From positions 155,436-219,435 of the forward strand of contig JAIXKT010000007.1 in the NCBI GenBank assembly GCA_026932145.1: DNA of 64,000 nucleotides. The letters are read 5' to 3'. Below the pieces are notes generated by a model. It was not told where the DNA came from. It worked only from the letters and a program-made list of their open reading frames with translations, and ran no database searches. Origin of the DNA: Bacteroidia bacterium (GTDB lineage: Bacteria > Bacteroidota > Bacteroidia > J057 > JAIXKT01). Both the position numbers and the translations under genes were made by a program. Shown here in pieces: positions 16,817 through 40,074 of the stretch. Position 1 is the stretch's first letter. Each line of letters starts with the position of its first letter.

Positions 16817-17180
16817 GGGAGGATTAGTTGAGGCTGTCGCTGGTGTTTTTTATACGAGAGGAAAGTCCGGGCAACATAGAGCGGCTTGCATCCTAACGGG
16901 ATGGGTCGCCGGAGGTAAGGCCGGCGATACAGAAAGTGCAACAGAAAATATACCGCCTAATGAAAATTAGGTAAGGGTGAAATCGCGGGGTAAGAGCCCA
17001 CGGCATCAAAAGTGCTGGTAAACCTCAAGCGTTGAAAGACCAAATATACCGGCAATAGAGGGCTGCTCGCCCGAGCCGGAGGGTAGGTCGTTAGAGCTGC
17101 TGCGTGAGCAGCAACATAGATAAATGACAGCCACTACAATAGTAGCACAGAACCCGGCTTACCAACTGATACTCCCAGTT
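16817..17180 (+). ncRNA. rnpB: RNase P RNA (bacterial type A)
   Basis: The catalytic RNA that removes tRNA 5' leaders. The diagnostic conserved blocks are present: GAGGAAAGTCCGGGC near 16857-16871 and ACAGAACCCGGCTTA near 17149-17163, with the GGTAAGGGTGAAA and GTAAGAGCCCAC blocks in between. The two ends pair as helix P1 (GGGAGGATTAGTTG with CAACTGATACTCCC, with wobble or mismatch at two places). A run of T follows and should act as terminator. The 3' end is approximate by a few bases. Confidence 0.95.
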
Positions 17181-17248
17181 TTTTTACAATCTTACTAAAT
17201 TATAAAGAATACATAATAGTTAGTTTCTTACATAAAGTCTTCATTTCC

Positions 17249-18628
17249 ATGAACCTAAATTGGTTTCCAAGTATATGTTTAATACTATTTTGGGCTTTTT
17301 CTGTATTTAATCCATTATTTTGGGATACTATTCAGTTTGCCTCATATCATCCAACTTATTATTTTGAGAATAACTTTAATCAATGGTTTCTGCCTCCTCA
17401 TTTAGATAGTGGTCATCCGCCTTATTTTGGATTATACATAGCATTATGTTGGAAATTATTGGGACGTGAACTATGGGTAACCCATTTGGCTATGCTTCCT
17501 GCGGTTTTAGCTATTGCTTATTTTTTACAAAAACTATCCCAAAATATTTCAGGTGGGTGTTTGTTTAGCTGGATGTTTGTTTGCTTTGCAGGTATAATAG
17601 GGCAGATTATGCTGGTAAGCCCAGATGTATTGCTGGTACTGTTTTGGTTATTAGGTGTTTATGGAATTATTAACCGGCAAAAGACGATTATCATTTTTTC
17701 TGTAATATTATTGGGAATGATAAGTATGCGTGGTATGGTTGCTGCCGTTGGGCTATTTTTATGGCAAGGCTGGATATATCGCAGCGAAAAAAATAACGTA
17801 TTAAAAACCATTTATTTATACATTCCCGGAGGCTTGCTTGCAATGGCTTACTTCGTAGTTCATTATTTCAGAACAAAGTGGATTGGTTATCACACAAATT
17901 CAACATGGGCAGATAGTTTCTTATATGTAGATTTTCACGGATTTCTAAAAAACATCATTGTTTTAGGCTGGAGATTAAATGATTTTGGTGTTTTTATTAT
18001 TTGGTTATCAATAATTTATATTTTATTTAAACAAAAGATACCAATTAAAAGTTGGCTTTTTGAGTTAGGAAACTGGGGTGTTTTACTTATTATTAACCTA
18101 ATTTTATTTGCAGCAATAATGCTTCCTTATACCGGTTTAATGGGACATCGCTATTTATTACCGGTTTATATTTCGCTATTTTGGGTATGGGCACATATAG
18201 CACAAAAATATCCCTACAGGAAATTTGTGATAATAGGAATTTTGGGGATAGTTTTGGGAAATATATGTTTTTATCCTCAACCGATAGCAACCGGTTGGGA
18301 TAGCACGCCACTTCATATTTTCTATTTCCCGATTCGCCAGCAATGTATTAACTATCTAAAAAACAATAATATACCGCTTGAAACAGTTGGTTCGGCTTTC
18401 CCTAATTTAGATCCATTATTCATTACTGATCTATCTGCTCATGATTCAAGTGCTTTTGCTGAAAAGAATTTGAATAGCCAAAATCGGATTTTTTACAGTA
18501 ATATCTTTAACAATTTTACTGATTCAGAACTTCAAGAACTTCATTCTGAATGGGTTATAGAAAAGGATTGGAGTAGCTGGCCTATCACAGGAATATTATA
18601 CAAAAAGCCTAAGCCATCGGATTTATAG
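17249..18628 (+). CDS. GT-C/ArnT-like membrane glycosyltransferase (GT39/GT83 type)
   Basis: 459 residues with about ten hydrophobic helices. The first external loop contains FWDTIQFASYHP and, further on, DSGHPPYFGLY, matching the acidic and HPP features of PMT/ArnT-like transferases, which use polyprenyl-phosphate-linked sugars. The acceptor could be lipid A, protein or a glycan and cannot be named from sequence. The C-terminal domain after the last helix (from about 375) is soluble and probably periplasmic. It begins shortly after rnpB, and no clear TAnnTTTG box is visible before ATG 17249. It is convergent with dapD. Confidence 0.7.
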   Translation: MNLNWFPSICLILFWAFSVFNPLFWDTIQFASYHPTYYFENNFNQWFLPPHLDSGHPPYFGLYIALCWKLLGRELWVTHLAMLPAVLAIAYFLQKLSQNISGGCLFSWMFVCFAGIIGQIMLVSPDVLLVLFWLLGVYGIINRQKTIIIFSVILLGMISMRGMVAAVGLFLWQGWIYRSEKNNVLKTIYLYIPGGLLAMAYFVVHYFRTKWIGYHTNSTWADSFLYVDFHGFLKNIIVLGWRLNDFGVFIIWLSIIYILFKQKIPIKSWLFELGNWGVLLIINLILFAAIMLPYTGLMGHRYLLPVYISLFWVWAHIAQKYPYRKFVIIGILGIVLGNICFYPQPIATGWDSTPLHIFYFPIRQQCINYLKNNNIPLETVGSAFPNLDPLFITDLSAHDSSAFAEKNLNSQNRIFYSNIFNNFTDSELQELHSEWVIEKDWSSWPITGILYKKPKPSDL

Positions 18629-28593: not shown

Positions 28594-29895
28594 ATGGCTG
28601 AAGTTGCAGAAATTAAATTAGGGGACAAGACGCTTTCCTTACCTGTAGTAACTGGTTCAGAGCAAGAAAAAGCTATTGATATCACTAAGTTACGAGACAT
28701 GACCGGCTACATAACGTTAGACTCCGGCTACAAAAACACTGGTGCTACTAAGAGTGCAATTACATTTTTAGATGGAGAAAACGGGATACTACAATACCGG
28801 GGCATTCCGATAGAGCAGTTAGCAGAAAAGTCTTCCTTCTTAGAAGTAGCTTATCTCTTGATTTTGGGAGAATTACCTACCGAAGAAAACCTTAGAAACT
28901 GGGAAAATCGTATCACTAAACATACGTTAATCCATGAAAATACGAAGCAGTTTTTTGAAGGATACCCAACAAGTGCGCATCCTATGGGGATTTTGTCTTC
29001 TACAATTTGCTCAATGGCTGCATTTTACCCAGAATCCTTAAAACCACACGGAACCCCAGAAAGTGTTGGACTTACAATCAGCCGCTTAATGGCAAAAGTT
29101 CCTACTTTAATTAGCTGGATATACAAAAAATCCATTGGGCATCCATTCATGTATCCGCAGAACAATTTAGATTATTGCTCTAACTTCCTGCACATGATGT
29201 TTTCTATGCCAACACATGATTATGAAGCAGATCCCGTTGTTGTAGATGCGCTCAATAAATTACTTATCTTACATGCTGACCATGAGCAAAACTGCTCTAC
29301 CTCAACAGTGCGAATGGTCGGATCATCCCATGCAAACTTATATGCAAGCATTGCAGCAGGAGTATTAGCTCTATGGGGGCCACTACACGGAGGTGCAAAC
29401 CAAGAAGTAATGGAAATGCTCGACATCATCAAAGAAGACGGCGGCGATGTTTCTAAATTTGTAGAAAAAGCTAAAGATAAAAATGATAACTTCCGTTTGA
29501 TGGGCTTTGGACATAGAGTTTACAAAAACTTTGACCCACGTGCCAGAATTATTAAAAAAGCATGCGACCAAGTGCTTGATAAACTTGGTATCAATGACCC
29601 TGTTTTAGATATTGCTAAACGGTTAGAAGAAGCTGCACTCAAAGATGATTATTTTGTAGAAAGAAAATTATATCCCAACGTTGATTTTTACTCCGGTATA
29701 ATTTACCGCGCAATAGGCATTCCGGTAGATATGTTTACTGTGATGTTTGCACTTGGCCGCCTACCCGGCTGGATAGCCCAGTGGAAAGAAATGCGTGACC
29801 AAAATGAACCCATCGGAAGACCACGCCAAATCTATACCGGTTATACAAAACGCGATTGGTGCTCATTGCAAGAGCGTAAACCAATTTCAAAATAA
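28594..29895 (+). CDS. gltA: Citrate synthase
   Basis: 433 residues, the usual length of the hexameric type II enzyme. It condenses acetyl-CoA and oxaloacetate at the entry of the citric acid cycle. Landmarks: ILQYRGIPIEQLAEKS near residue 70, the active-site His regions LHADHEQNCSTSTVR and GPLHGGANQ, and FGHRVYKNFDPRA, followed by VDFYSGIIYRAIG with the catalytic Asp. It stands alone with a strong hairpin terminator downstream. Confidence 0.97.
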   Translation: MAEVAEIKLGDKTLSLPVVTGSEQEKAIDITKLRDMTGYITLDSGYKNTGATKSAITFLDGENGILQYRGIPIEQLAEKSSFLEVAYLLILGELPTEENLRNWENRITKHTLIHENTKQFFEGYPTSAHPMGILSSTICSMAAFYPESLKPHGTPESVGLTISRLMAKVPTLISWIYKKSIGHPFMYPQNNLDYCSNFLHMMFSMPTHDYEADPVVVDALNKLLILHADHEQNCSTSTVRMVGSSHANLYASIAAGVLALWGPLHGGANQEVMEMLDIIKEDGGDVSKFVEKAKDKNDNFRLMGFGHRVYKNFDPRARIIKKACDQVLDKLGINDPVLDIAKRLEEAALKDDYFVERKLYPNVDFYSGIIYRAIGIPVDMFTVMFALGRLPGWIAQWKEMRDQNEPIGRPRQIYTGYTKRDWCSLQERKPISK

Positions 29896-29913
29896 CATTT
29901 AGTTTATAATAAT

Positions 29914-29970
29914 TTTTAAACTTGTAGTGGCCTAAACAATTCAAACGTTTAGGCCACTACAAGTTTAAAA
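29914..29970 (+). terminator. 24-bp perfect hairpin terminator after citrate synthase
   Basis: Arms 29914-29937 and 29947-29970 are perfect reverse complements with a nine-base loop. The arms contain the core CTTGTAGTGGCCTAAAC and end in A/T runs on both sides, so the hairpin could work for either strand. Confidence 0.8.
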
Positions 29971-30140
29971 GAGATAAAGAACTTGGCGTATAAATTTAAG
30001 CTATTTATCTCTTTTTGAACGATTTTAGATATTACAATAGCGATAAAAACCTAATATTTTGCTATAAAAACTATGTATAATAAATCGTAATAAAGTGTTT
30101 CAATCAGTAAAAATAATGGGATTATTACTAAAATAGATAT

Positions 30141-30203: not shown

Positions 30204-33200
30204 ATGTTTAATTCATTGTTAAACAAGATATTACCGTTAATACTGCTATTTTTTATAGTATGTGCAGATTTATTTGCACAAGTAAAGATGACACTTCAGC
30301 TAGAACAAAAGCTAAATTCTACGTCAGATTCTGTGTATTTTGATGTTTATATAAAGCGGGTGTCTGCAACTTTTTTTCGCTTAGGAACTTCTGACTTTGT
30401 TATCGAAATAGATACCACTATCTTAGATATTAATGCTAAAACGATTGTAACACGAGGAATTTGGGACAAATCTAATACAGGGGACACTTGTTCCTATTTG
30501 TATATGGACTTAGGCCCTAGTACACCTTCAAATACAACCTATATTAACTTAACGGTAAGAGCCAATACTTCTTGTACACCTACTTGTGTACCATCTGGTA
30601 GCTGTGGAATAGGTGTACCATTTAACAATAGAACTCTCGTAGGCAGGATTGCTATTAAGGTAAAGCAGTGTGGTAAGCCAATAACTTCAGAGTGGCGCTT
30701 TTTAGCTACTAATGACACCCCCCCAAGAGGAGATATTACGGATTATGTTACCGGTGCTTCTATTCGGCGCTTTGTGTTTTTCCAACCAACGAAAATGGTT
30801 GAAAGTTGCCCTGCTATCGTAGATTCATTTAAAGCGAGTAAAGACACAATCTGTAGAACAGACCCAATTACTTATACTGTTAGCTCATATTCATCTGATT
30901 CAGTATTTTTTTACAGAGGCACAACCCTTTTACAGGCTGATACCGCTAAAAATTATACCACAAACATAAATCAAGATAGCATTTATGCAATTACCAAAAA
31001 CATCTCTTGTAACTGTCTGGATACTACGGACATTATTCCGGTTAGAATATATGATTTCCCCGTTATAGCCAGCCAGCTCTCGGATTCTATTATTTGTGAA
31101 AACAGTTCAGCCGTTTTATTTGTAGAGGGCGCAACCAGCCAACAATTTCAATGGCAAATCTCAACTGATAATATTTTTTTTTCCAATACCTCTGGCTTAG
31201 GCGCGAATGGCCCTATTTTTTGGACAAGCCCACTAAACGATACAAGCTATTTTCGGTGCATTCTAAGTAACGCCAGCCGTTGTACTACAATTACGAATCC
31301 GATTACAATATTCACTGTTCCACGCCCAAGTGTTAGAACATTTGATAAGCCGGATACAGCCGTTTGTGTTGGCGGAACTGTAAATTTGGTAGCCCATAAT
31401 GTTGTGGGCACAACCCAGTGGCAAACATCTCCGAATGGTATTTTAAACTGGATAGATATTGCAGGTGTTACAGATACCAACACCGTCTCCCCACCGCTAA
31501 CTACGAGTATTTATTTTCGCTTAAAAACCTCAACACCTTGTGATAGTAGTTTTTCCAACGTTCATTTTGTACGCGTATTCAGCCCCTCACAGGGTACTTT
31601 CAATACAGTTATTCCGGATGTTTGCGTGGGAGATACCACCATTCCATTAGGCGCGCAAGTAACTTCCGGATCCGGTAAATGGTCAACTCCTAACGGAAAA
31701 GGAGGATTTTCCAATTCAGATGACCCAAATGCACGTTATGTTGCAGCCAATGTGGACGGAGGAGTAACTGTGCAGCTTAATTGGACTGTAAGTAACGGAC
31801 CCTGCTCAGATTCAGTATATACAAAATTTGTAAATGTTTTAGATAAGCCACTTGCGTTATTTTCCAATGCACCGCTACCAATATGTGCAGGTAACACGTC
31901 TGCTCCCATGGGAGCTACTGCTGTCAATGGAACAGGATTTTGGCTTGAAAATGGATTAGGTTCAATGACCAACCCAAACAACCCTAATGCTCAATATATT
32001 AGCACACAGGCAGAAGCCGGAGATACGGTTGATATTTCGTGGATAGTCGGAAACGGCATTTGTAAAAGTGATACCACTATCCAGCGGCTCATTATCTCAG
32101 CGGAGCCTTTTGGCGCGTTTAATACAAATTTACCATCTCTTTGCGCCGGAGACTCTTCTCTGCCTTTGGGTGGCCACATTGACGTTGGAATAGGACAATG
32201 GGCTTCTACCGGACAAGGAGTGTTCTACCCGTCTCCTTTTGATAGTAACGCTGTGTATATTTCCAGCCCATCTGATTCCAACACAACAGTTACTATCTCT
32301 TGGGAAGTTTCTTCACCCGGATGTGTTCCCAAAATATACATACAGGCTTTTCCCGTAAGTTCAGAGCCACTTGGAGACTATCTCGTTAAGCCGGACACTA
32401 TTTGCGCCGGTGGCAAAACAGATTCTTTAGACGGTATTACCATCAGAGGAACCGGCTTCTGGGTTACACCTAACGGGTCAGGAACTTTTGATGACCCGAA
32501 TAACCCCGAATCTCCTTATTTATCAGATACTATTAATGACCCAACTCTACCGAACGGAAATGTTCAGCTATGTTGGGTTGTTGTAAACGGCTCATGTGTT
32601 CCGGATTCAAACTGCCAGCTACTTCATGTTCTAAATATGAGAATATCAGGCTCTTTTTCTGTAAAACCGGATTCTATTTGTATTGGAGATAGGACCAAGC
32701 CATTGGGAGCAACAGCCGTTAACGGTATAGGACGCTGGACACATAATGGTGCCGGATATTTTCTGGACTCCTTAGATGGCAATACCCGCTATGTATCCAA
32801 CCCATTAGATGCCGGAAAAACAATTCAATTAAAATGGACTATTACCAATAGCTTTTGCAAGCAACTGGCTTTTACCCAGAAGCTGAAAGTTTATAATACC
32901 CCTTACGGAGTTTTTGCAACAACTCCCCCGCCAGTATGTGCGGGAAATACTTCGGTAAATTTAGGGGCATTTGCCTTTGTTGGAACGGGGCGTTGGGCGC
33001 AAGGAGCTAATGGATTAGGCACTTTTTTAGATAATAAAGGTCTTGCCGTAACTAATTTAGATCCAAATGGAAAATATGCTTCAAATCCTGCTAACGCTGG
33101 GGATACTATTGATATTTACTGGATTACATCTAACGGCCCATGTAAAGAAGATACGATTACCAGAAGGTTAATCATAGGAAGCCCGCCGGCGGCTACTTTT

Positions 33201-36200
33201 CCGGTTGGGCCACCAATGATTTGCGCCGGTGGTAATTCAGATACCTTAGTAGTAAATATCACCTCAGGAGCGGGGATTATTTGGGATGACGGCTCTGCTA
33301 ATGGAGCTTTTTATCCACCCAATAAACCTCGTTCTATATACTATTCCAACTTGGTTGATGCGGGACAAACCGTAACCTTAACGGCTAAGATATACAGCCC
33401 CGGCTGTGATACCTTATATTTAACTCAGCCCATTCAGTTATCAAATACCATCATCGAAGGATATTTTTCCAACGCACCCCCACCAATCTGCATCACAGAT
33501 ACTACTCAACCCTTAAATTCTTCGGTTGTTAGCGGTACTGGTAGCTGGGAGGCAAGTGTACTCGGAGGGCAGTTTATCCCGAATATTTTTGATACTGCTG
33601 CCAGATATATCCCACCTCCAACTGTTCCCGGTGCCTCAGATACAATTACCTTGATATGGCGTGTTTCTAATGGAGTTTGTAATGATTTGTTGCTACCTCA
33701 ACCACTCATTGTTTATAATATACCGGACGGCTCTATTGTAACGGCTCCACCACCTGTTTGTTTTGGGTCTATTTCAGATACCTTACGTGTACAAACAAAT
33801 ATAGGCGTTGGAACTTGGGTACATTTTGGGACTGGCGGTTTTGATAATTCTAATAAATCGGATGCCCGATACATCCCTGGCCCCGGCGACGTTGGCACTT
33901 GTGTTCCCATAGCTTGGGTTGTTACGAACGGACCTTGCACCGTGGACTCTAACTTCACAACTATTTGTATAGACGCTGTACCTGCCGGCGGATTCTTTAC
34001 GAATGTGCCAGCAGTATGTGCAGGATCACCAACAGTTCCGCTTGCTGCTACCATATCTACCGGAAAAGGTAAGTGGTACGCCATTGGTGGAAATGGCGGA
34101 CATTTCGATAATGACACCATCCCCAATGCTATCTATTTTACCAATCCCGCCGAAGCAGGAACTACAATTCGTTTGTATTGGATTGTAACTAACGGCATTT
34201 GCAGCTCAGATACCAACTTTCAGGATTTGCAGGTTTTAAATACATCGGTAGCTGGAACGTTTAATACTACCTTAGATTCTATTTGTGCACTTACCCCTAC
34301 AATTTCTTTAGGAGCAACGGTTTCTGCCGGAACGGGTAGATGGACGGCTATGATTAACGGTAATCCTGCCGGAGGAACATTTTCTCCCAGCGACTTAGAT
34401 TCAAATGCTGTCTATATTCCACCAATTTCGGCGGTTGGTCGAAACATAAATATCTGCTGGAATATCACCAACGGCAATTGTAATGAACTCGATTTATGCC
34501 AAACGCTATTTGTCAGAAACTATCCAGCAGGCGAGTTCGTCTCTGAGCTAAGGCCAATTTGTGCCGGCGATACTTCTGATACCTTACGAGCAATAGTTTC
34601 TTTTGGAACTGGTAAATGGGTTACTTTAAATGGATTAGGAACATTTTCAGATTCCCTGCGAAGTGATTCTGTGGTATATTTTTCCCATATTAATGATCCG
34701 ATAAATGTATCTATTGTTTGGGTTGTTTCGGCTCCGGGGTGTGTTTCGGATTCAAATTTTAAGATGCTACGTGTGTATGAACATCCGCAAGGTGATTTTT
34801 CAACGGCACCAGACAGTATTTGTGCAGGCACTGCATCTGCCCCATTAGGGGCGACTTTGACGGTCGGCTTCGGTCAGTGGGAATGTACCAACTGCATTGG
34901 CGGATTTACAGCACCTTCTACCGACCCGAATGCACGTTATGTTGCTCTTGTGGATCCATCTGTAACTACGTCCAGTAAACCTGTTACGCTAACTTGGGTA
35001 ATTACTAATGGCCCCTGTGATACTGTTCGATATAACCAAGATATTGTAATTCAGACTCCCTCGTTGGGTGCATTTTTACCTCCTGCCAATGCAGAAGTTT
35101 GCTATCAAGATACTTCCGATACATTGCGCGGAAAGGCTATTTATGGACAAGGTTTTTGGACAACTTCCGGAAGTGGGTCATTTTCACCCAATAACACCGA
35201 TACTAATGTTGTTTACATCGCTGGCTCAGCAGATAAAGATACCGCAGTAACCATAACTTGGACAGTAATCAATGGCAAGTGTGATCCGGTTCAGTATCAA
35301 CAGTATCTATTTGTATATGACGTACCCTTGGGCGATTTTAGCACACCATTAGACACGGTTTGTGCCGGCTATCCTTCAATACCCTTGGGGGCTACATTAA
35401 AAGGAGCATATTCTTACGGAAGATGGTCGCATAACGGGGCGGGAAGTTTTTCTGATGCGAATAATCCAAATGCGCGCTATCTATCTGTTCGTGCAGACGG
35501 AGGGGATACCATCACACTTACTTGGACGGTATTCAATGGGCCGGGTTGCGACAGTATTTCGTATTCCCAGTTATTATTTGTTAGACAAGCAGTTGCTACT
35601 GTTAATCCAGACACATCTTTGTGTTTGGGGGATACAGTACGGCTTATGGCTTCAGGTGGAACATTCTATTCATGGAGAGATTTAATAACTGGCCAGCCTG
35701 GTCAAGAGTTAAGCGACCCAAATGTAGCCAGTCCATATTGCTTTGCTACTCAAAGTAGAGCCTATTTAGTTCAGGTGCAGGATAATTTAGGCTGTGTATT
35801 CCAAGATACAGTTCAAGTGATTGTTAGGCAGCCAGATACAACTACTGTTTCTACAAATGTATTTGTTTGCTCCGGAGATTCGATTCAGATATTTGCTACT
35901 AACGGTTTAGCTTATCACTGGGTAGGGGAGGGGATTAGCTCCCCAAATAGTGCGGTAACGTACATAAAGCCGACCCAAACGCAATTATATGACGTATTTA
36001 TCTACACCGCTTCTGGATGTACAGCTAAAAAACAAGTGTTAGTTACAGTATATCCAACTCCAGAGCCAGTTATAACAGGTAAAGATATTTGTGTGGGTTT
36101 AGACTTAGTTCTCAGACTTGAAAATGATGGAACCTGTGTAAATCGTTATTGGTTTAGAGGGAATATAAGTCAGGTACTAAGTAGCGGAAATCCCGACCAA

Positions 36201-36908
36201 ACTAACCCTAGATTTATCCACCAAGCAGATACTTTATTAGCCGATTCTTTAAAAATAGGTGCCTATACTTTCACTTTTGCCTGTAGAAATATTCAAGGAT
36301 GTATTGGCTTAGATGAATATACTTTTAATGTGAGTATGCCACCGCTTGCAGGTCTTACAGGTGATACCGTAGTGAGGCCATATAATAATCGGAGGGTTCG
36401 ATTTACAGATACTTCTGTAGATGCAGTACGCTATTTGTGGGACTTTGGAGATCCTGCAAGCGATACGATAACTGCTGCCGATACTGTTATTAACAATATT
36501 TCAAATCTCCAAAATCCTGAACATTTCTTTTCGCAGCCGGGAACGTACTCAATAGCACTTTATGTAGAAAACGAACTCGGTTGTGGGGATATTTATGTAG
36601 CCACAAACTATGTTATTATCAAACCGCCCCGTTATGATTTTCCAACAGCTTTTTCTCCCAATGGAGACGGAATAAATGATATATTTAGACCACTACCGGC
36701 AGATAATACGGCAAATGTGCTGTTTATGCAAATCTATGACCGTTGGGGAAAGTTAGTCTTTGAGAGTACCAATGACCCCAAAGGTTGGGATGGAAAAACA
36801 CCCAGCGGAGAACCTTTTGACGTAGGAGCCTATTCCTACAAAGTAATGATTGAACTGCCTATTATAGGGCCAACACTATACACCGGTAATGTATCCTTAG
36901 TAAAATGA
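30204..36908 (+). CDS. Giant secreted repeat protein with a gliding-motility/T9SS type B C-terminal sorting domain
   Basis: 2234 residues from ATG 30204, which opens a clear signal peptide (NSLLNKILPLILLFFIVCADLFAQ region); a TTG 16 codons earlier would put charged residues in front. After an N-terminal beta-rich region (about 25-470) come fifteen repeats of about 88 residues (about 473-1797), each opening with a Cys motif such as ICAGDTS and ending in an ITNGxC-like strand. Ig-like modules and a PKD domain (YLWDFGDP, about 2060-2140) follow. The last about 90 residues (FPTAFSPNGDGINDIFRP ... YDRWGKLVFES ... GWDGK ... GAYSYKV) are the type B sorting domain recognised by the type IX system. 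It is predicted to be exported and attached to or released from the cell surface, like SprB-type adhesins. The stop overlaps the SprF start. Confidence 0.9.
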   Translation: MFNSLLNKILPLILLFFIVCADLFAQVKMTLQLEQKLNSTSDSVYFDVYIKRVSATFFRLGTSDFVIEIDTTILDINAKTIVTRGIWDKSNTGDTCSYLYMDLGPSTPSNTTYINLTVRANTSCTPTCVPSGSCGIGVPFNNRTLVGRIAIKVKQCGKPITSEWRFLATNDTPPRGDITDYVTGASIRRFVFFQPTKMVESCPAIVDSFKASKDTICRTDPITYTVSSYSSDSVFFYRGTTLLQADTAKNYTTNINQDSIYAITKNISCNCLDTTDIIPVRIYDFPVIASQLSDSIICENSSAVLFVEGATSQQFQWQISTDNIFFSNTSGLGANGPIFWTSPLNDTSYFRCILSNASRCTTITNPITIFTVPRPSVRTFDKPDTAVCVGGTVNLVAHNVVGTTQWQTSPNGILNWIDIAGVTDTNTVSPPLTTSIYFRLKTSTPCDSSFSNVHFVRVFSPSQGTFNTVIPDVCVGDTTIPLGAQVTSGSGKWSTPNGKGGFSNSDDPNARYVAANVDGGVTVQLNWTVSNGPCSDSVYTKFVNVLDKPLALFSNAPLPICAGNTSAPMGATAVNGTGFWLENGLGSMTNPNNPNAQYISTQAEAGDTVDISWIVGNGICKSDTTIQRLIISAEPFGAFNTNLPSLCAGDSSLPLGGHIDVGIGQWASTGQGVFYPSPFDSNAVYISSPSDSNTTVTISWEVSSPGCVPKIYIQAFPVSSEPLGDYLVKPDTICAGGKTDSLDGITIRGTGFWVTPNGSGTFDDPNNPESPYLSDTINDPTLPNGNVQLCWVVVNGSCVPDSNCQLLHVLNMRISGSFSVKPDSICIGDRTKPLGATAVNGIGRWTHNGAGYFLDSLDGNTRYVSNPLDAGKTIQLKWTITNSFCKQLAFTQKLKVYNTPYGVFATTPPPVCAGNTSVNLGAFAFVGTGRWAQGANGLGTFLDNKGLAVTNLDPNGKYASNPANAGDTIDIYWITSNGPCKEDTITRRLIIGSPPAATFPVGPPMICAGGNSDTLVVNITSGAGIIWDDGSANGAFYPPNKPRSIYYSNLVDAGQTVTLTAKIYSPGCDTLYLTQPIQLSNTIIEGYFSNAPPPICITDTTQPLNSSVVSGTGSWEASVLGGQFIPNIFDTAARYIPPPTVPGASDTITLIWRVSNGVCNDLLLPQPLIVYNIPDGSIVTAPPPVCFGSISDTLRVQTNIGVGTWVHFGTGGFDNSNKSDARYIPGPGDVGTCVPIAWVVTNGPCTVDSNFTTICIDAVPAGGFFTNVPAVCAGSPTVPLAATISTGKGKWYAIGGNGGHFDNDTIPNAIYFTNPAEAGTTIRLYWIVTNGICSSDTNFQDLQVLNTSVAGTFNTTLDSICALTPTISLGATVSAGTGRWTAMINGNPAGGTFSPSDLDSNAVYIPPISAVGRNINICWNITNGNCNELDLCQTLFVRNYPAGEFVSELRPICAGDTSDTLRAIVSFGTGKWVTLNGLGTFSDSLRSDSVVYFSHINDPINVSIVWVVSAPGCVSDSNFKMLRVYEHPQGDFSTAPDSICAGTASAPLGATLTVGFGQWECTNCIGGFTAPSTDPNARYVALVDPSVTTSSKPVTLTWVITNGPCDTVRYNQDIVIQTPSLGAFLPPANAEVCYQDTSDTLRGKAIYGQGFWTTSGSGSFSPNNTDTNVVYIAGSADKDTAVTITWTVINGKCDPVQYQQYLFVYDVPLGDFSTPLDTVCAGYPSIPLGATLKGAYSYGRWSHNGAGSFSDANNPNARYLSVRADGGDTITLTWTVFNGPGCDSISYSQLLFVRQAVATVNPDTSLCLGDTVRLMASGGTFYSWRDLITGQPGQELSDPNVASPYCFATQSRAYLVQVQDNLGCVFQDTVQVIVRQPDTTTVSTNVFVCSGDSIQIFATNGLAYHWVGEGISSPNSAVTYIKPTQTQLYDVFIYTASGCTAKKQVLVTVYPTPEPVITGKDICVGLDLVLRLENDGTCVNRYWFRGNISQVLSSGNPDQTNPRFIHQADTLLADSLKIGAYTFTFACRNIQGCIGLDEYTFNVSMPPLAGLTGDTVVRPYNNRRVRFTDTSVDAVRYLWDFGDPASDTITAADTVINNISNLQNPEHFFSQPGTYSIALYVENELGCGDIYVATNYVIIKPPRYDFPTAFSPNGDGINDIFRPLPADNTANVLFMQIYDRWGKLVFESTNDPKGWDGKTPSGEPFDVGAYSYKVMIELPIIGPTLYTGNVSLVK
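31620..35590 (+). repeat. Fifteen diverged tandem repeats of about 88 codons in the giant T9SS substrate
   Basis: Each repeat starts with a (V/I/L)C-G/A motif followed by PLGA-like residues and a G-G-W turn (examples: VCVGDTTIPLGA, ICAGNTSAPMGA, VCAGSPTVPLAA, VCAGYPSIPLGA). Each also has a conserved N-A-x-Y strand and a closing NGxC. The paired Cys suggest one disulfide per module. DNA identity between repeats is low, so the array is old and not in obvious active expansion. Confidence 0.85.
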
Positions 36909-37942
36909 TGTTTCTAAAAAGAATAACACTTTGGGTGGTCGCTTTGCTAATAGTTAGGGAGGGTTTAGCACAAGACCTGAATTATTCTCTGATATATGCA
37001 ACGCCTAACGCCATTAATCCGGCTTATGTGGGGCTTGTAGAGGGGAAAATGCGTTTTAACCTTACTCACCGGTATCGCCAGCAAACGGCTTCGGCTGCCT
37101 ATAACTCCTCTATTCTTACCGGAGACCTGAATTTGAATAGTGAAAAATTTAAAGGTGGAGTAGGGGTTCTGTTTTCTACAGACTTAGCCAGCTATATCCG
37201 TACTAACCAAATGCAGATATGCGCTGCCTATGATATTCCCTTAGGTGTAAAGGTTCGTTATGACCACCTACGTGCCGGCGTTCAGTTAGGCTTTGCCCAA
37301 AGACACATCGAAGATTCTCGGCTGTTCTTTGAAGACCAATATGACGGAGACGCTTTCTCTAAACCAACCCAAGAAACATCATTAGCTCGCTTTTCCAAAG
37401 CTAACTTAGATATTTCAAGCGGCATAACGTACTACCGTACGCAAAAAATTAAAGGTAATCCAGAATTTAACCCGTGGGCAGGCTTTGCCGTATATCACAT
37501 TAACCAACCGCACGTCGGGTTCTATGGCTTTAAAGAAGATAAGCAATCTATCCGTTTCGCAGCCAATTTCGGTGGAAAACTTAGGACGCGAACCCCCCTC
37601 GATTTGAATGCAAATATCTTATACCTAAGACATAATAATTCCCAACTTGCTAACTATACTTTTTTTGCCAGATGGGTATTTTTTGATAAAGGAATATGGT
37701 TTTCTCATGAAAACGCCTCCATTATGCTCGGAGCAACAGCCCGCTCTACTGAATCTATCGTATTTTTCTCCGGCTTTGAATTTGATAAACGCTTATCATT
37801 TGCCTTTTGCTTTGATTTTGTTACCTCTAAAGCACACCTAATTAACGGTAATTTTGGTGGAATTCAACTAATGCTTCACTATAATATTGGATTTCGTAAT
37901 TTAGATAGAAAAACATCGGCACTTCCATTTCCAACATTTTAA
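36905..37942 (+). CDS. sprF: PorP/SprF-family type IX secretion outer-membrane protein
   Basis: 345 residues. A signal peptide (FLKRITLWVVALLIVREGLAQ) leads into DLNYSLIYATPNAINPAYVG, the characteristic start of PorP/SprF proteins, followed by outer-membrane strands. SprF proteins are needed for secretion of the SprB-type substrate encoded next to them. Here the start overlaps the substrate gene stop in ATGA, so the two are translationally coupled and probably form a substrate/partner pair. The phosphatase gene follows six bases downstream. Confidence 0.92.
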   Translation: MMFLKRITLWVVALLIVREGLAQDLNYSLIYATPNAINPAYVGLVEGKMRFNLTHRYRQQTASAAYNSSILTGDLNLNSEKFKGGVGVLFSTDLASYIRTNQMQICAAYDIPLGVKVRYDHLRAGVQLGFAQRHIEDSRLFFEDQYDGDAFSKPTQETSLARFSKANLDISSGITYYRTQKIKGNPEFNPWAGFAVYHINQPHVGFYGFKEDKQSIRFAANFGGKLRTRTPLDLNANILYLRHNNSQLANYTFFARWVFFDKGIWFSHENASIMLGATARSTESIVFFSGFEFDKRLSFAFCFDFVTSKAHLINGNFGGIQLMLHYNIGFRNLDRKTSALPFPTF

Positions 37943-37948
37943 TCAAAT

Positions 37949-39478
37949 ATGTCTGCAACATACGTAGCTATACGCGAGAATCGTAAACGAGAACAACTCG
38001 CTCGCAAAAGTACCCGCAACCTAAGTCTGGGTATGTTAGTCGCTTCCATTGTCATGGCAATTGCTTTTATCACTTGCCTGTTAGTTTTTAAAATTACGGG
38101 ACAGTGGCTGTATCTGTCATTAACGGTTATTGGCGTATCCTTAATAGCAATCGGATATATGGTTTTTCGCCTCTACAATATTGTAGGATTTACAACTGCG
38201 GTAGTTGAAAAAAAAGCAACAGAAACGGTTGATAAAACCGAAGGAAAATTTAAAGCCTTGATACAAAATTCAATGGACATCATTACAATTATTGATATCA
38301 AAGGAAAAATTTTGTACCTAAGCCCTTCCAGCGAACGTATTTTGGGCTACCCAATAGATGAAATGCTGAACCTTAGCATCTATGAACTGATGCACTCAGA
38401 AGACCATTGCCTGCTTCAAAACGCATTAGATAAAGGAGAATCTTTTGTGTTTTCTTACCGGATGCAACATTACGATGGAACATGGCTCTACTTTGAATCC
38501 ATAGGAACAAACCTAACCAATAACCCACAAATCAAGGGCGTGGTGATTAACTCCCGTGATATTACTGACAGAAAAAAAGAAGAAGAAGAACGCCGCCAAA
38601 AAGAAATTGCTGCCGTAAGACTTAGTTTTGAAAAAGCCAAAACCGAAAAAGAAAAAGAAATTATTGAGGCTTCAAAAGCTGAATTGGAAAAAGCCTACCA
38701 AATTATTGAACATCATAATCATGAAATTACAGATTCAATAACGTATGCTTTTCGTATCCAAACGGCATTATTACCCCCAATTGAAAATATCCAGCAAATT
38801 ATCCCGCAGTCATTTGTATTATGGCGGCCAAAAGATATTGTAAGCGGGGACTTCTTCTGGTTTGCCCAGATTGGCCACCGTTCCCTAATTGCAACGGCAG
38901 ACTGTACCGGCCACGGTGTCCCCGGCGCATTCATGACAATGATTGGAAATACACTCCTAAATCAAATTGTTATGGCTGATGATATTTATCAACCCAACGA
39001 GATCTTAGAAAGACTGCATCTTGGCGTTAGAAAAGCCCTAAAACAAGCCGAAGAAGGCTCTAAGTCAAGGGACGGTATGGACATCGCCTTTACAATGATT
39101 GACCACAATACCAAAACCCTGTATTACGCGGCTGCCAATAGACCGCTATACTTTGTCAGAAATGGCGAATTAGAAGAATATAAAGCCGATAAATATTCAA
39201 TCGGAGGCTTACAGACAGAAAAAGAAAGGCACTTTACATCCAATGAAATCTCATTACAGCCCGGAGATACTTATTACATTTTCTCTGACGGATACCATGA
39301 CCAATTCGGTGGCTCCAAAGGCCGTAAATTTATGACTAAACAACTCAAAGAAAAGCTAATCGCAATCCAAGATATGAATATGGAAAGCCAACGAGAGTTT
39401 TTAGATAAAACTATCGTTGATTGGATGGGAACCAGAGAGCAAATTGATGATATTCTGGTAGTTGGCGTACGCATATAA
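37949..39478 (+). CDS. Membrane PAS-SpoIIE serine phosphatase
   Basis: 509 residues. Two membrane helices (about 27-48 and 52-74) precede a PAS domain (about 98-212, with IIDIKGKILYLSPSSERILGYP), a charged coiled coil (about 212-262) and a PP2C-type SpoIIE domain (about 280-508). Metal-binding acidic positions are visible in SGDFFWF, ADCTGHGVPGAFMT and DGYHDQFGG. Such phosphatases typically dephosphorylate anti-sigma antagonists or other regulators. It is cotranscribed with the T9SS substrate and SprF, six bases after sprF, so control of surface secretion or motility is a reasonable inference, not proven. Confidence 0.87.
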   Translation: MSATYVAIRENRKREQLARKSTRNLSLGMLVASIVMAIAFITCLLVFKITGQWLYLSLTVIGVSLIAIGYMVFRLYNIVGFTTAVVEKKATETVDKTEGKFKALIQNSMDIITIIDIKGKILYLSPSSERILGYPIDEMLNLSIYELMHSEDHCLLQNALDKGESFVFSYRMQHYDGTWLYFESIGTNLTNNPQIKGVVINSRDITDRKKEEEERRQKEIAAVRLSFEKAKTEKEKEIIEASKAELEKAYQIIEHHNHEITDSITYAFRIQTALLPPIENIQQIIPQSFVLWRPKDIVSGDFFWFAQIGHRSLIATADCTGHGVPGAFMTMIGNTLLNQIVMADDIYQPNEILERLHLGVRKALKQAEEGSKSRDGMDIAFTMIDHNTKTLYYAAANRPLYFVRNGELEEYKADKYSIGGLQTEKERHFTSNEISLQPGDTYYIFSDGYHDQFGGSKGRKFMTKQLKEKLIAIQDMNMESQREFLDKTIVDWMGTREQIDDILVVGVRI

Positions 39479-39588: not shown

Positions 39589-40074
39589 ATGGAAAATATT
39601 CCTAAATTAGAAAAAATATATCCTCCCGTTTCGATTCAGCTTATAGATAAAATGGAAAAGAAGTTGGGAATATCTTTACCCCAGATATACCGAGAATTTT
39701 TGCTGCAATATAATGGCGGAATACCTTTTTACAACACCTATGACGTTATTTCTGACCAAACAAAAATTATTCTCTATAAGATAGTTATAACTCAGTTTTT
39801 AGGAATATCTCAAGGTTCTCCGGATGATATTGAAACGGTTTATAATGCCGTTAAGTCCAGAATTCCACCTAAGGTGCTGCCAATAGCATACGACCAATTT
39901 AAAAATATTATCTGTGTAGCTACTGACGAAATAGATTTGGGTAAAATATATTTCTGTGCGCTAATACCTAAAATACCAGGGCTTTCTGATATAATGGGAA
40001 TGCAGCAAAAAATATTAGTAGCCTCTAACTTTGAGCATTTTGTAGAAAAACTATATAGACAAAGGTTTCTATAA
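39589..40074 (+). CDS. SMI1/KNR4 (SUKH) family protein
   Basis: 161 residues, one SUKH domain. Seen: an N-terminal helix pattern SIQLIDKMEKKLGISLPQIYREFLLQYNGG, which is the usual SUKH opening (helix, then LP..(Y/F)..FL...NGG), and a C-terminal helix NFEHFVEKLY. In bacteria many SUKH proteins are immunity proteins against polymorphic toxins. No toxin gene is adjacent, so this is either an orphan immunity protein or a housekeeping member of the family. Convergent with mutL. Confidence 0.75.
   Translation: MENIPKLEKIYPPVSIQLIDKMEKKLGISLPQIYREFLLQYNGGIPFYNTYDVISDQTKIILYKIVITQFLGISQGSPDDIETVYNAVKSRIPPKVLPIAYDQFKNIICVATDEIDLGKIYFCALIPKIPGLSDIMGMQQKILVASNFEHFVEKLYRQRFL

Follow-up and report, generated by a model that had tools for sequence, protein, structure and literature searches.

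Why should the gene for a signalling phosphatase directly follow those for a giant secreted protein and its outer-membrane carrier, and could its product control them? The question is raised by a window of 64,000 nucleotides, the whole stretch of DNA analysed here, from a Bacteroidia bacterium (assembly GCA_026932145.1, contig JAIXKT010000007.1, positions 155,436 to 219,435 of the forward strand; genome of 3.48 Mb in 66 contigs). Four genes stand in a row on its + strand. They encode a giant type B substrate of the type IX secretion system (T9SS; 30204..36908), a carrier/anchor of the PorP/SprF family (36905..37942), a phosphatase of 509 residues with PAS and SiaA-type PP2C (SpoIIE) domains and a predicted membrane anchor (37949..39478), and a SUKH (SMI1/KNR4) family protein (39589..40074). 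We propose, with a probability of roughly 0.45, that this unit ties a conserved adhesin with immunoglobulin-like (Ig-like) repeats and its carrier to a switch resembling SiaABC.

Conservation of the gene order

The spacing of the genes is tight. The stop codon of the substrate gene (TGA, 36906-36908) overlaps the SprF start at 36905 as ATGA, the SprF stop (TAA, 37940-37942) is followed by six bases (TCAAAT) and the phosphatase ATG at 37949, and the SUKH gene starts 110 bases beyond the phosphatase gene. A search for inverted repeats of at least 12 bases gave none at the three inner junctions. Co-transcription of the unit appears plausible. An earlier reading made from the letters of the window (hereafter the sequence-only reading) had described the first three genes as an operon. 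Their order, strand and positions, the ATGA overlap at 36905-36908 and the six-base gap are all as it had placed them; its operon ended one gene early, missing the SUKH gene.

We then asked how widely this order is kept, using a profile of this SprF clade on 395 genomes of the class and scoring up to five best candidates per genome. An SprF orthologue was present in 17 of the 395, at 372 bits or more, after which scores dropped to 141 bits. The phosphatase gene directly followed SprF in 15 of these 17 genomes (our own, G010, G006, G001, G005 and ten of family f50), and the linked loci span five families, f1, f2, f6 and f7 of one order together with f50. A substrate gene lay directly upstream of SprF in 16 of the 17; in the other, G063, the contig begins inside SprF. 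The order recurs in other families at about 34-45% identity for SprF and 40-56% for the phosphatase, and the phosphatase frame has its first ATG 6 bases beyond the end of SprF here and 1 to 3 bases beyond it in the ten genomes of f50. Named database records gave a phosphatase next to SprF in 12 of 14 loci; these are largely the same genomes and are not an independent count.

The search for a conserved order had been suggested by the sequence-only reading. Among the controls, a phosphatase of this kind stood beside none of 37 non-orthologous SprF genes (flanks of up to 1.5 kb), of which 14 had a matching substrate. Ten of these control loci were also viewed with larger flanks, again without the phosphatase (0/10); in one of them (L174) the SprF gene itself was absent from the called open reading frames (ORFs). 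When 54 PP2C domains were placed in a tree, the linked orthologues (13) and the unlinked ones (3) fell into one clade (support 100/98, with the bootstrap not fully settled), apart from 10 paralogous phosphatases of our genome. The alignment had been reduced from 68 to 54 rows by dropping 14 truncated near-duplicates, and the tree excludes sequences with under about 230 aligned residues (G005 and G247 among them) as well as several paralogues of our genome.

Some observations weigh against a strict link. G002 and G335 carry the orthologous phosphatase on another contig, unlinked to SprF, and G008, a 96% complete genome from the same genus as G002, has phosphatase and SUKH genes, with no SprF orthologue found. 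The sequence-only reading had regarded phosphatases at unrelated loci in close relatives as refuting its proposal. Such cases do exist, in three of the 18 genomes (G002, G008 and G335), as breaks of an otherwise conserved link. As judged from gene order and tree, the association of phosphatase, SprF and substrate is beyond chance and involves one phosphatase, with no recurrent coincidence. Within the loci sampled it is specific to this SprF clade, and since the order is both conserved and clade-specific, a functional tie is likely.

The phosphatase could nevertheless be a passenger of the operon, kept there by shared expression and having no effect on the adhesin. In f50 the unit runs on into FTCD, which follows the phosphatase in 7/7 of the loci tested and long enough, and into LpxD and LpxC (6/6); these functions are unrelated, so adjacency there does not imply joint action. 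Our genome is also rich in SpoIIE phosphatases (17 matches), and G002 and G335 lack the link. Such indifference would have to be reconciled with a single phosphatase clade that directly follows SprF in 15 of 17 genomes across five families and with its absence beside the 37 other SprF genes, and we consider it somewhat unlikely.

A SiaA-like phosphatase and its candidate partners

As the sequence-only reading had described it, the phosphatase combines two hydrophobic segments with PAS_9 (48.7 bits, cut-off 27) and SpoIIE (70.2 bits, cut-off 25) domains. A hydropathy scan placed the segments at residues 29-47 and 54-72 (38033..38164, + strand). They are separated by a six-residue loop, and this short loop together with the positive N-terminus predicts a hairpin with both ends cytosolic. 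The PAS domain (38246..38569), found by Pfam and by fold match, and the PP2C/SpoIIE catalytic domain (38876..39472), found by Pfam and by alignment to SiaA (6k4e), follow on the same strand and are predicted to lie on the cytosolic side. In the structure model (mean predicted local distance difference test score, pLDDT, 79; predicted template modelling score 0.51) both domains are good and the helical hairpin is of modest confidence. Seven of 10 orthologues scanned had two or more hydrophobic segments. The remaining three, which are all three of the f50 ones scanned, had one segment over the threshold, which speaks against a general two-helix anchor; we predict it for our own phosphatase and do not carry it over to f50.

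The best solved match of the phosphatase was the PP2C domain of Pseudomonas aeruginosa SiaA (6k4e), both by sequence (1.7e-36) and by fold (E value 3.1e-21, TM score 0.88 on the target). The metal-binding aspartates expected of a SiaA-type PP2C domain are present, and D301, D318, D375, D447, D451, D500 and D501 are invariant in 16 aligned orthologues. However, the SiaA equivalog model NF038263 was missed (206.8 of 700 bits), and on these profile scores the protein is SiaA-like rather than SiaA.

A further SpoIIE gene of our genome, of REC-GAF-SpoIIE type, lies in two pieces, one ORF on each side of a DDE transposase ORF (locus L070, 7332-10200, contig C54). The same locus (16947-17711) and locus L148 (8874-9638), on two contigs, carry 254-residue ORFs identical in their first 50 residues, which are probably copies of one insertion element.

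These predictions bear on the mechanism given in the sequence-only reading, namely that a sensed signal controls secretion or surface use of the substrate by dephosphorylation. The conserved, clade-specific link makes a functional tie likely and so supports it in part. Dephosphorylation of the secreted protein itself is not supported: the PAS and PP2C domains are predicted cytosolic, so the phosphatase should not reach a protein that leaves by Sec and T9SS. Taken literally, the phosphatase might strip phosphate from the substrate or SprF before export, as gene adjacency could suggest. The substrate and SprF would, though, pass Sec unfolded, and the catalytic domain is predicted to be in the cytosol. 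The PP2C domain also most resembles that of SiaA, whose target is the phosphoprotein SiaC (as described in part of PMC7647112). We regard this reading as very unlikely.

In P. aeruginosa, SiaA dephosphorylates SiaC at a threonine, opposing the kinase SiaB, and the SiaABCD pathway controls aggregation and biofilm, according to the relevant parts of PMC7647112 and, for the latter, also of PMC8457831. The SiaC family was present in all 18 genomes with a phosphatase orthologue, and our genome encodes three SiaC homologues with SiaB-family kinases beside them. SiaC-family phosphoproteins are, by analogy, the likely targets of the phosphatase.

Several points limit this analogy. There is no SiaB or SiaC gene in the unit, and the nearest SiaC gene found lies about 41 kb off on the same contig; with 17 SpoIIE matches in the genome, SiaC pairing is not specific to this phosphatase. 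The SiaC protein of our genome that was tested passes the Pfam SiaC cut-off but falls below that of the SiaC equivalog (90.7 of 150 bits). Neither SiaB and SiaC in the same locus nor the SiaD diguanylate cyclase of SiaABCD was found. Indeed, GGDEF domains were detected in 0/18 phosphatase genomes by a search that was positive in 8/14 control genomes, and an output through SiaD and cyclic di-GMP was set aside for these genomes. Since no GGDEF domain was found in any of the 18, SiaC should have an output here that differs from the diguanylate cyclase SiaD, as far as domain searches tell.

At two other loci of our genome (L146, 6963-9561; L147, 7760-9297), SiaB-like and SiaC-like genes alternate, each followed by a small protein that no family model matched above its cut-off. 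No phosphatase or cyclase was among the neighbours scanned there.

Bacterial SUKH proteins often act as immunity proteins. The SUKH protein encoded behind the phosphatase scored 70.5 bits against PF09346 (cut-off 25.4) and was also over the cut-off of PF14568, and scans of the four neighbours with Pfam and NCBIfam models gave no toxin domain, a result that unknown toxins would escape. We found the SUKH gene directly after the phosphatase gene in 8/8 genomes outside f50 (our own, G010, G006, G001, G002, G008, G335 and G005). In G005 the phosphatase is split over two contig ends, with residues 70-394 on one and residues 390-509, then SUKH, on the other; we infer that the two pieces continue each other. 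In f50, in contrast, no SUKH protein scored over the cut-off (0/10 genomes, five with weaker matches elsewhere in the genome), a finding that counts against SUKH as a general component of the system. The SUKH protein is probably a cytosolic partner of the phosphatase.

Phosphatase and SUKH could instead be the real functional pair. SUKH would then serve as an adaptor, an inhibitor or a phosphorylated target of the phosphatase, and the T9SS cassette would be a frequent neighbour with a looser bond. Their adjacency also holds in the genomes that have SprF at another place (G002, G335) or gave no SprF orthologue (G008), and SUKH is the sole over-cut-off match of the genome in seven of the eight. 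Yet the f50 phosphatase stays with SprF in 10/10 of the genomes found with this SprF, with no SUKH seen beside it in any of the 8 whose contig runs past the phosphatase, and our genome has three SUKH genes, two of them on another contig. We hold this pairing, as the explanation of the locus, to be unlikely.

The adhesin, its carrier and the question of gliding

The substrate has 2234 residues counted from ATG 30204, the first of its frame, behind which lies an N-terminus resembling a signal peptide as judged by eye; the listed ORF starts at TTG 30156. That it is a giant T9SS substrate, as the sequence-only reading had it, is borne out by its C-terminus, where a PKD domain is followed by a type B sorting domain (36342..36848, + strand) over both curated cut-offs (CHU_C 50.3 bits, cut-off 27; TIGR04131 49.2 bits, cut-off 35). 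The range 31599..35630 on the + strand is filled by Ig-like repeats in tandem, about 15 of them and each of about 88 residues, as seen by repeat profile, alignment and model. The profile counted 16 copies, including a weak first one (14.5 bits) that shortly precedes this range. Two cysteines per repeat were invariant across 12 overlapping repeat pairs, and the predicted structure of one pair is Ig-like (pLDDT 91). A single-sequence search of the whole substrate against the PDB returned nothing at an E value of 0.01.

A profile of two repeats matched GhpA of Aureispira sp. CCB-QB1 at 3.6e-41 over the whole protein (best single stretch 1.7e-8), and the two-repeat model aligned with the GhpA fold over both repeats (Z score 9.2, root mean square deviation 7.5, 176 aligned residues, 20% identity). 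The hooks of the predator Aureispira are T9SS-secreted, according to part of PMC11205867. The two proteins are thus alike in their repeats, by profile and as a two-repeat fold, and differ in length, GhpA having 5898 residues. The same repeat was, however, present in 4/8 control type B substrates, and kinship to GhpA was dropped as a clue to function. Since unrelated phage proteins also reached a Z score equal to that of GhpA over one domain, the repeat is, from profile and fold comparison, a common Ig-like building block with no sign of grappling hooks.

Elsewhere, the substrate gene at L160 (8120-10925, genome G315) consists of two overlapping ORFs, through a frameshift or an assembly error. 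In f50, two ORFs of about 180-220 and about 330 residues stand closely upstream of the substrate in at least 6 of 9 loci (L157, 12339-13906, and equivalents); Pfam gave nothing on these two small ORFs in the one genome scanned.

The carrier scored 112.1 bits against PorP_SprF (PF11751, cut-off 22.3) and 127 against TIGR03519 (cut-off 90.55). A profile of its clade found no solved structure at an E value of 0.01. In our genome, one locus gives matches to the T9SS components PorK, PorL and PorM over cut-off and to PorN below it (65.2 of 85.9). Carriers secrete and anchor their cognate substrates, and pairs of the SprB/SprF type, which the sequence-only reading had called known, are indeed established (relevant parts of PMC9143113 and PMC12618676). 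The adhesin would be exported via Sec and T9SS and held by its cognate SprF.

Could this be a gliding-motility adhesin system like SprB/SprF? A large repetitive type B substrate with an SprF gene directly downstream has that appearance, and a GldJ-like gene of our genome, at 346 bits, comes close to the GldJ_short cut-off of 382.9, although no GldJ model is reached in this genome. In Flavobacterium johnsoniae, a cysteine pair in the SprF tail bonds GldK and is needed for gliding and not for export (as described in part of PMC12635249). Such a Cys-X-Cys motif in the periplasmic C-terminal tail was lacking here: none of 17 SprF orthologues had a cysteine in the last 18 residues. Our SprF ends in LPFPTF, and 14/17 end in PFPxF or PFPxW. 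By comparison, 25/32 other SprF/PorP relatives (4 fusion proteins of more than 450 residues dropped) have a cysteine at position -4, most ending in a PCPRF-like tail, where this clade has Phe or another residue; this cysteine may correspond to the F. johnsoniae pair. The cysteine-less tail is not unique to the clade. The 7/32 relatives without a tail cysteine include the PorP beside PorK in our genome and L167, the best-scoring non-orthologue, which ends in PFPRF. Since the clade lacks the cysteine, its tail is a sign that the adhesin here is not tied to a gliding track; a gliding role of this SprF clade is unlikely, and we consider an SprB/SprF-like gliding system at this locus very unlikely.

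A citrate synthase gene (28594-29895) lies upstream of the unit. Between them is a strong inverted repeat (29901..29983; arms 29901-29937 and 29947-29983, 84% complementary), the probable terminator of that gene. Beyond the SUKH gene, the next long ORFs are on the opposite strand. A Bacteroidota promoter motif occurred 5 times in the window against 4.5 expected, with no match before the operon. The only Rfam match of the window at gathering scores was the bacterial RNase P RNA, class A, at 16820-17177.

A proposed switch and its relation to known systems

The gene content and order, their conservation, the identity of the clade, the SiaA-type fold and the presence of SiaB and SiaC families can be read from the DNA; co-transcription, the cytosolic side of the phosphatase domains, the target of the phosphatase, the role of SUKH and any effect on the adhesin are put forward here in conditional form. 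The adhesin, a long surface protein of Ig-like repeats with a type B sorting domain, would leave through Sec and T9SS and be held at the outer membrane by a dedicated PorP/SprF carrier. The phosphatase, probably anchored in the inner membrane with its PAS and SiaA-type PP2C domains predicted to face the cytosol, would be tuned by the PAS domain and perhaps by the SUKH protein. It would dephosphorylate a SiaC-family phosphoprotein that SiaB-family kinases encoded elsewhere phosphorylate, and the phosphorylation state of that protein would set when the adhesin is made or used. The arrangement points to a coupling of surface attachment with internal signalling in these bacteria.

Pairs of type B substrate and SprF are known; a SpoIIE/SiaA-type phosphatase tied to such a pair we did not find reported. 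Among the matches listed in the open-access literature, no paper joined T9SS or SprF with a phosphatase of this type, the word phosphatase is absent from the main text of PMC9143113, PMC12618676 and PMC12635249, and none of the matches listed for SUKH was judged on topic. A match on the name SiaC was set aside, since that name is also used for a surface sialidase. A stronger claim would be that gene order firmly binds a SiaABC-type Ser/Thr phosphorylation switch, lacking any diguanylate cyclase, to a single T9SS adhesin with its carrier, and that SUKH is an adaptor of the phosphatase, making this a new coupling of cytosolic phosphosignalling to a surface adhesin in Bacteroidota. Taken in all its parts, that claim is doubtful.

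T9SS control in Porphyromonas gingivalis is described as running via PorXY and SigP. If our proposal is true, the tie of a SiaA-type phosphatase to a single type B adhesin would add a control line that is distinct from PorXY/SigP and dedicated to that adhesin. Since SiaA-like phosphatases and SiaC proteins are numerous in these genomes and no GGDEF match was found, the locus would also be a concrete entry to the role of SiaC where SiaD is lacking. The conserved phosphatase-SUKH pair, in turn, offers a role for the SUKH fold beyond immunity that can be put to the test.

Compared with known systems, the SUKH protein resembles SUKH/SMI1-KNR4 proteins in passing both family models and differs in having a phosphatase as its neighbour. 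The substrate and SprF resemble SprB/SprF and the pairs of type B C-terminal-domain substrate and PorP/SprF of F. johnsoniae and P. gingivalis, in that the carrier gene directly follows the substrate gene and the family models are matched. They differ from SprB/SprF in lacking the C-terminal tail cysteines throughout the clade and from such pairs in their third gene, which encodes a signalling phosphatase, predicted cytosolic, where the third partners are described, in part of the literature, as PorE-like proteins. With SiaABCD of P. aeruginosa the locus shares the SiaA-type PP2C domain, and its genome the SiaB and SiaC families. Unlike SiaA, the phosphatase here has a PAS domain and two short N-terminal helices and misses the SiaA equivalog model; unlike in SiaABCD, SiaB and SiaC are unlinked to it, GGDEF is found in 0/18 genomes, and the phosphatase is linked to a T9SS adhesin.

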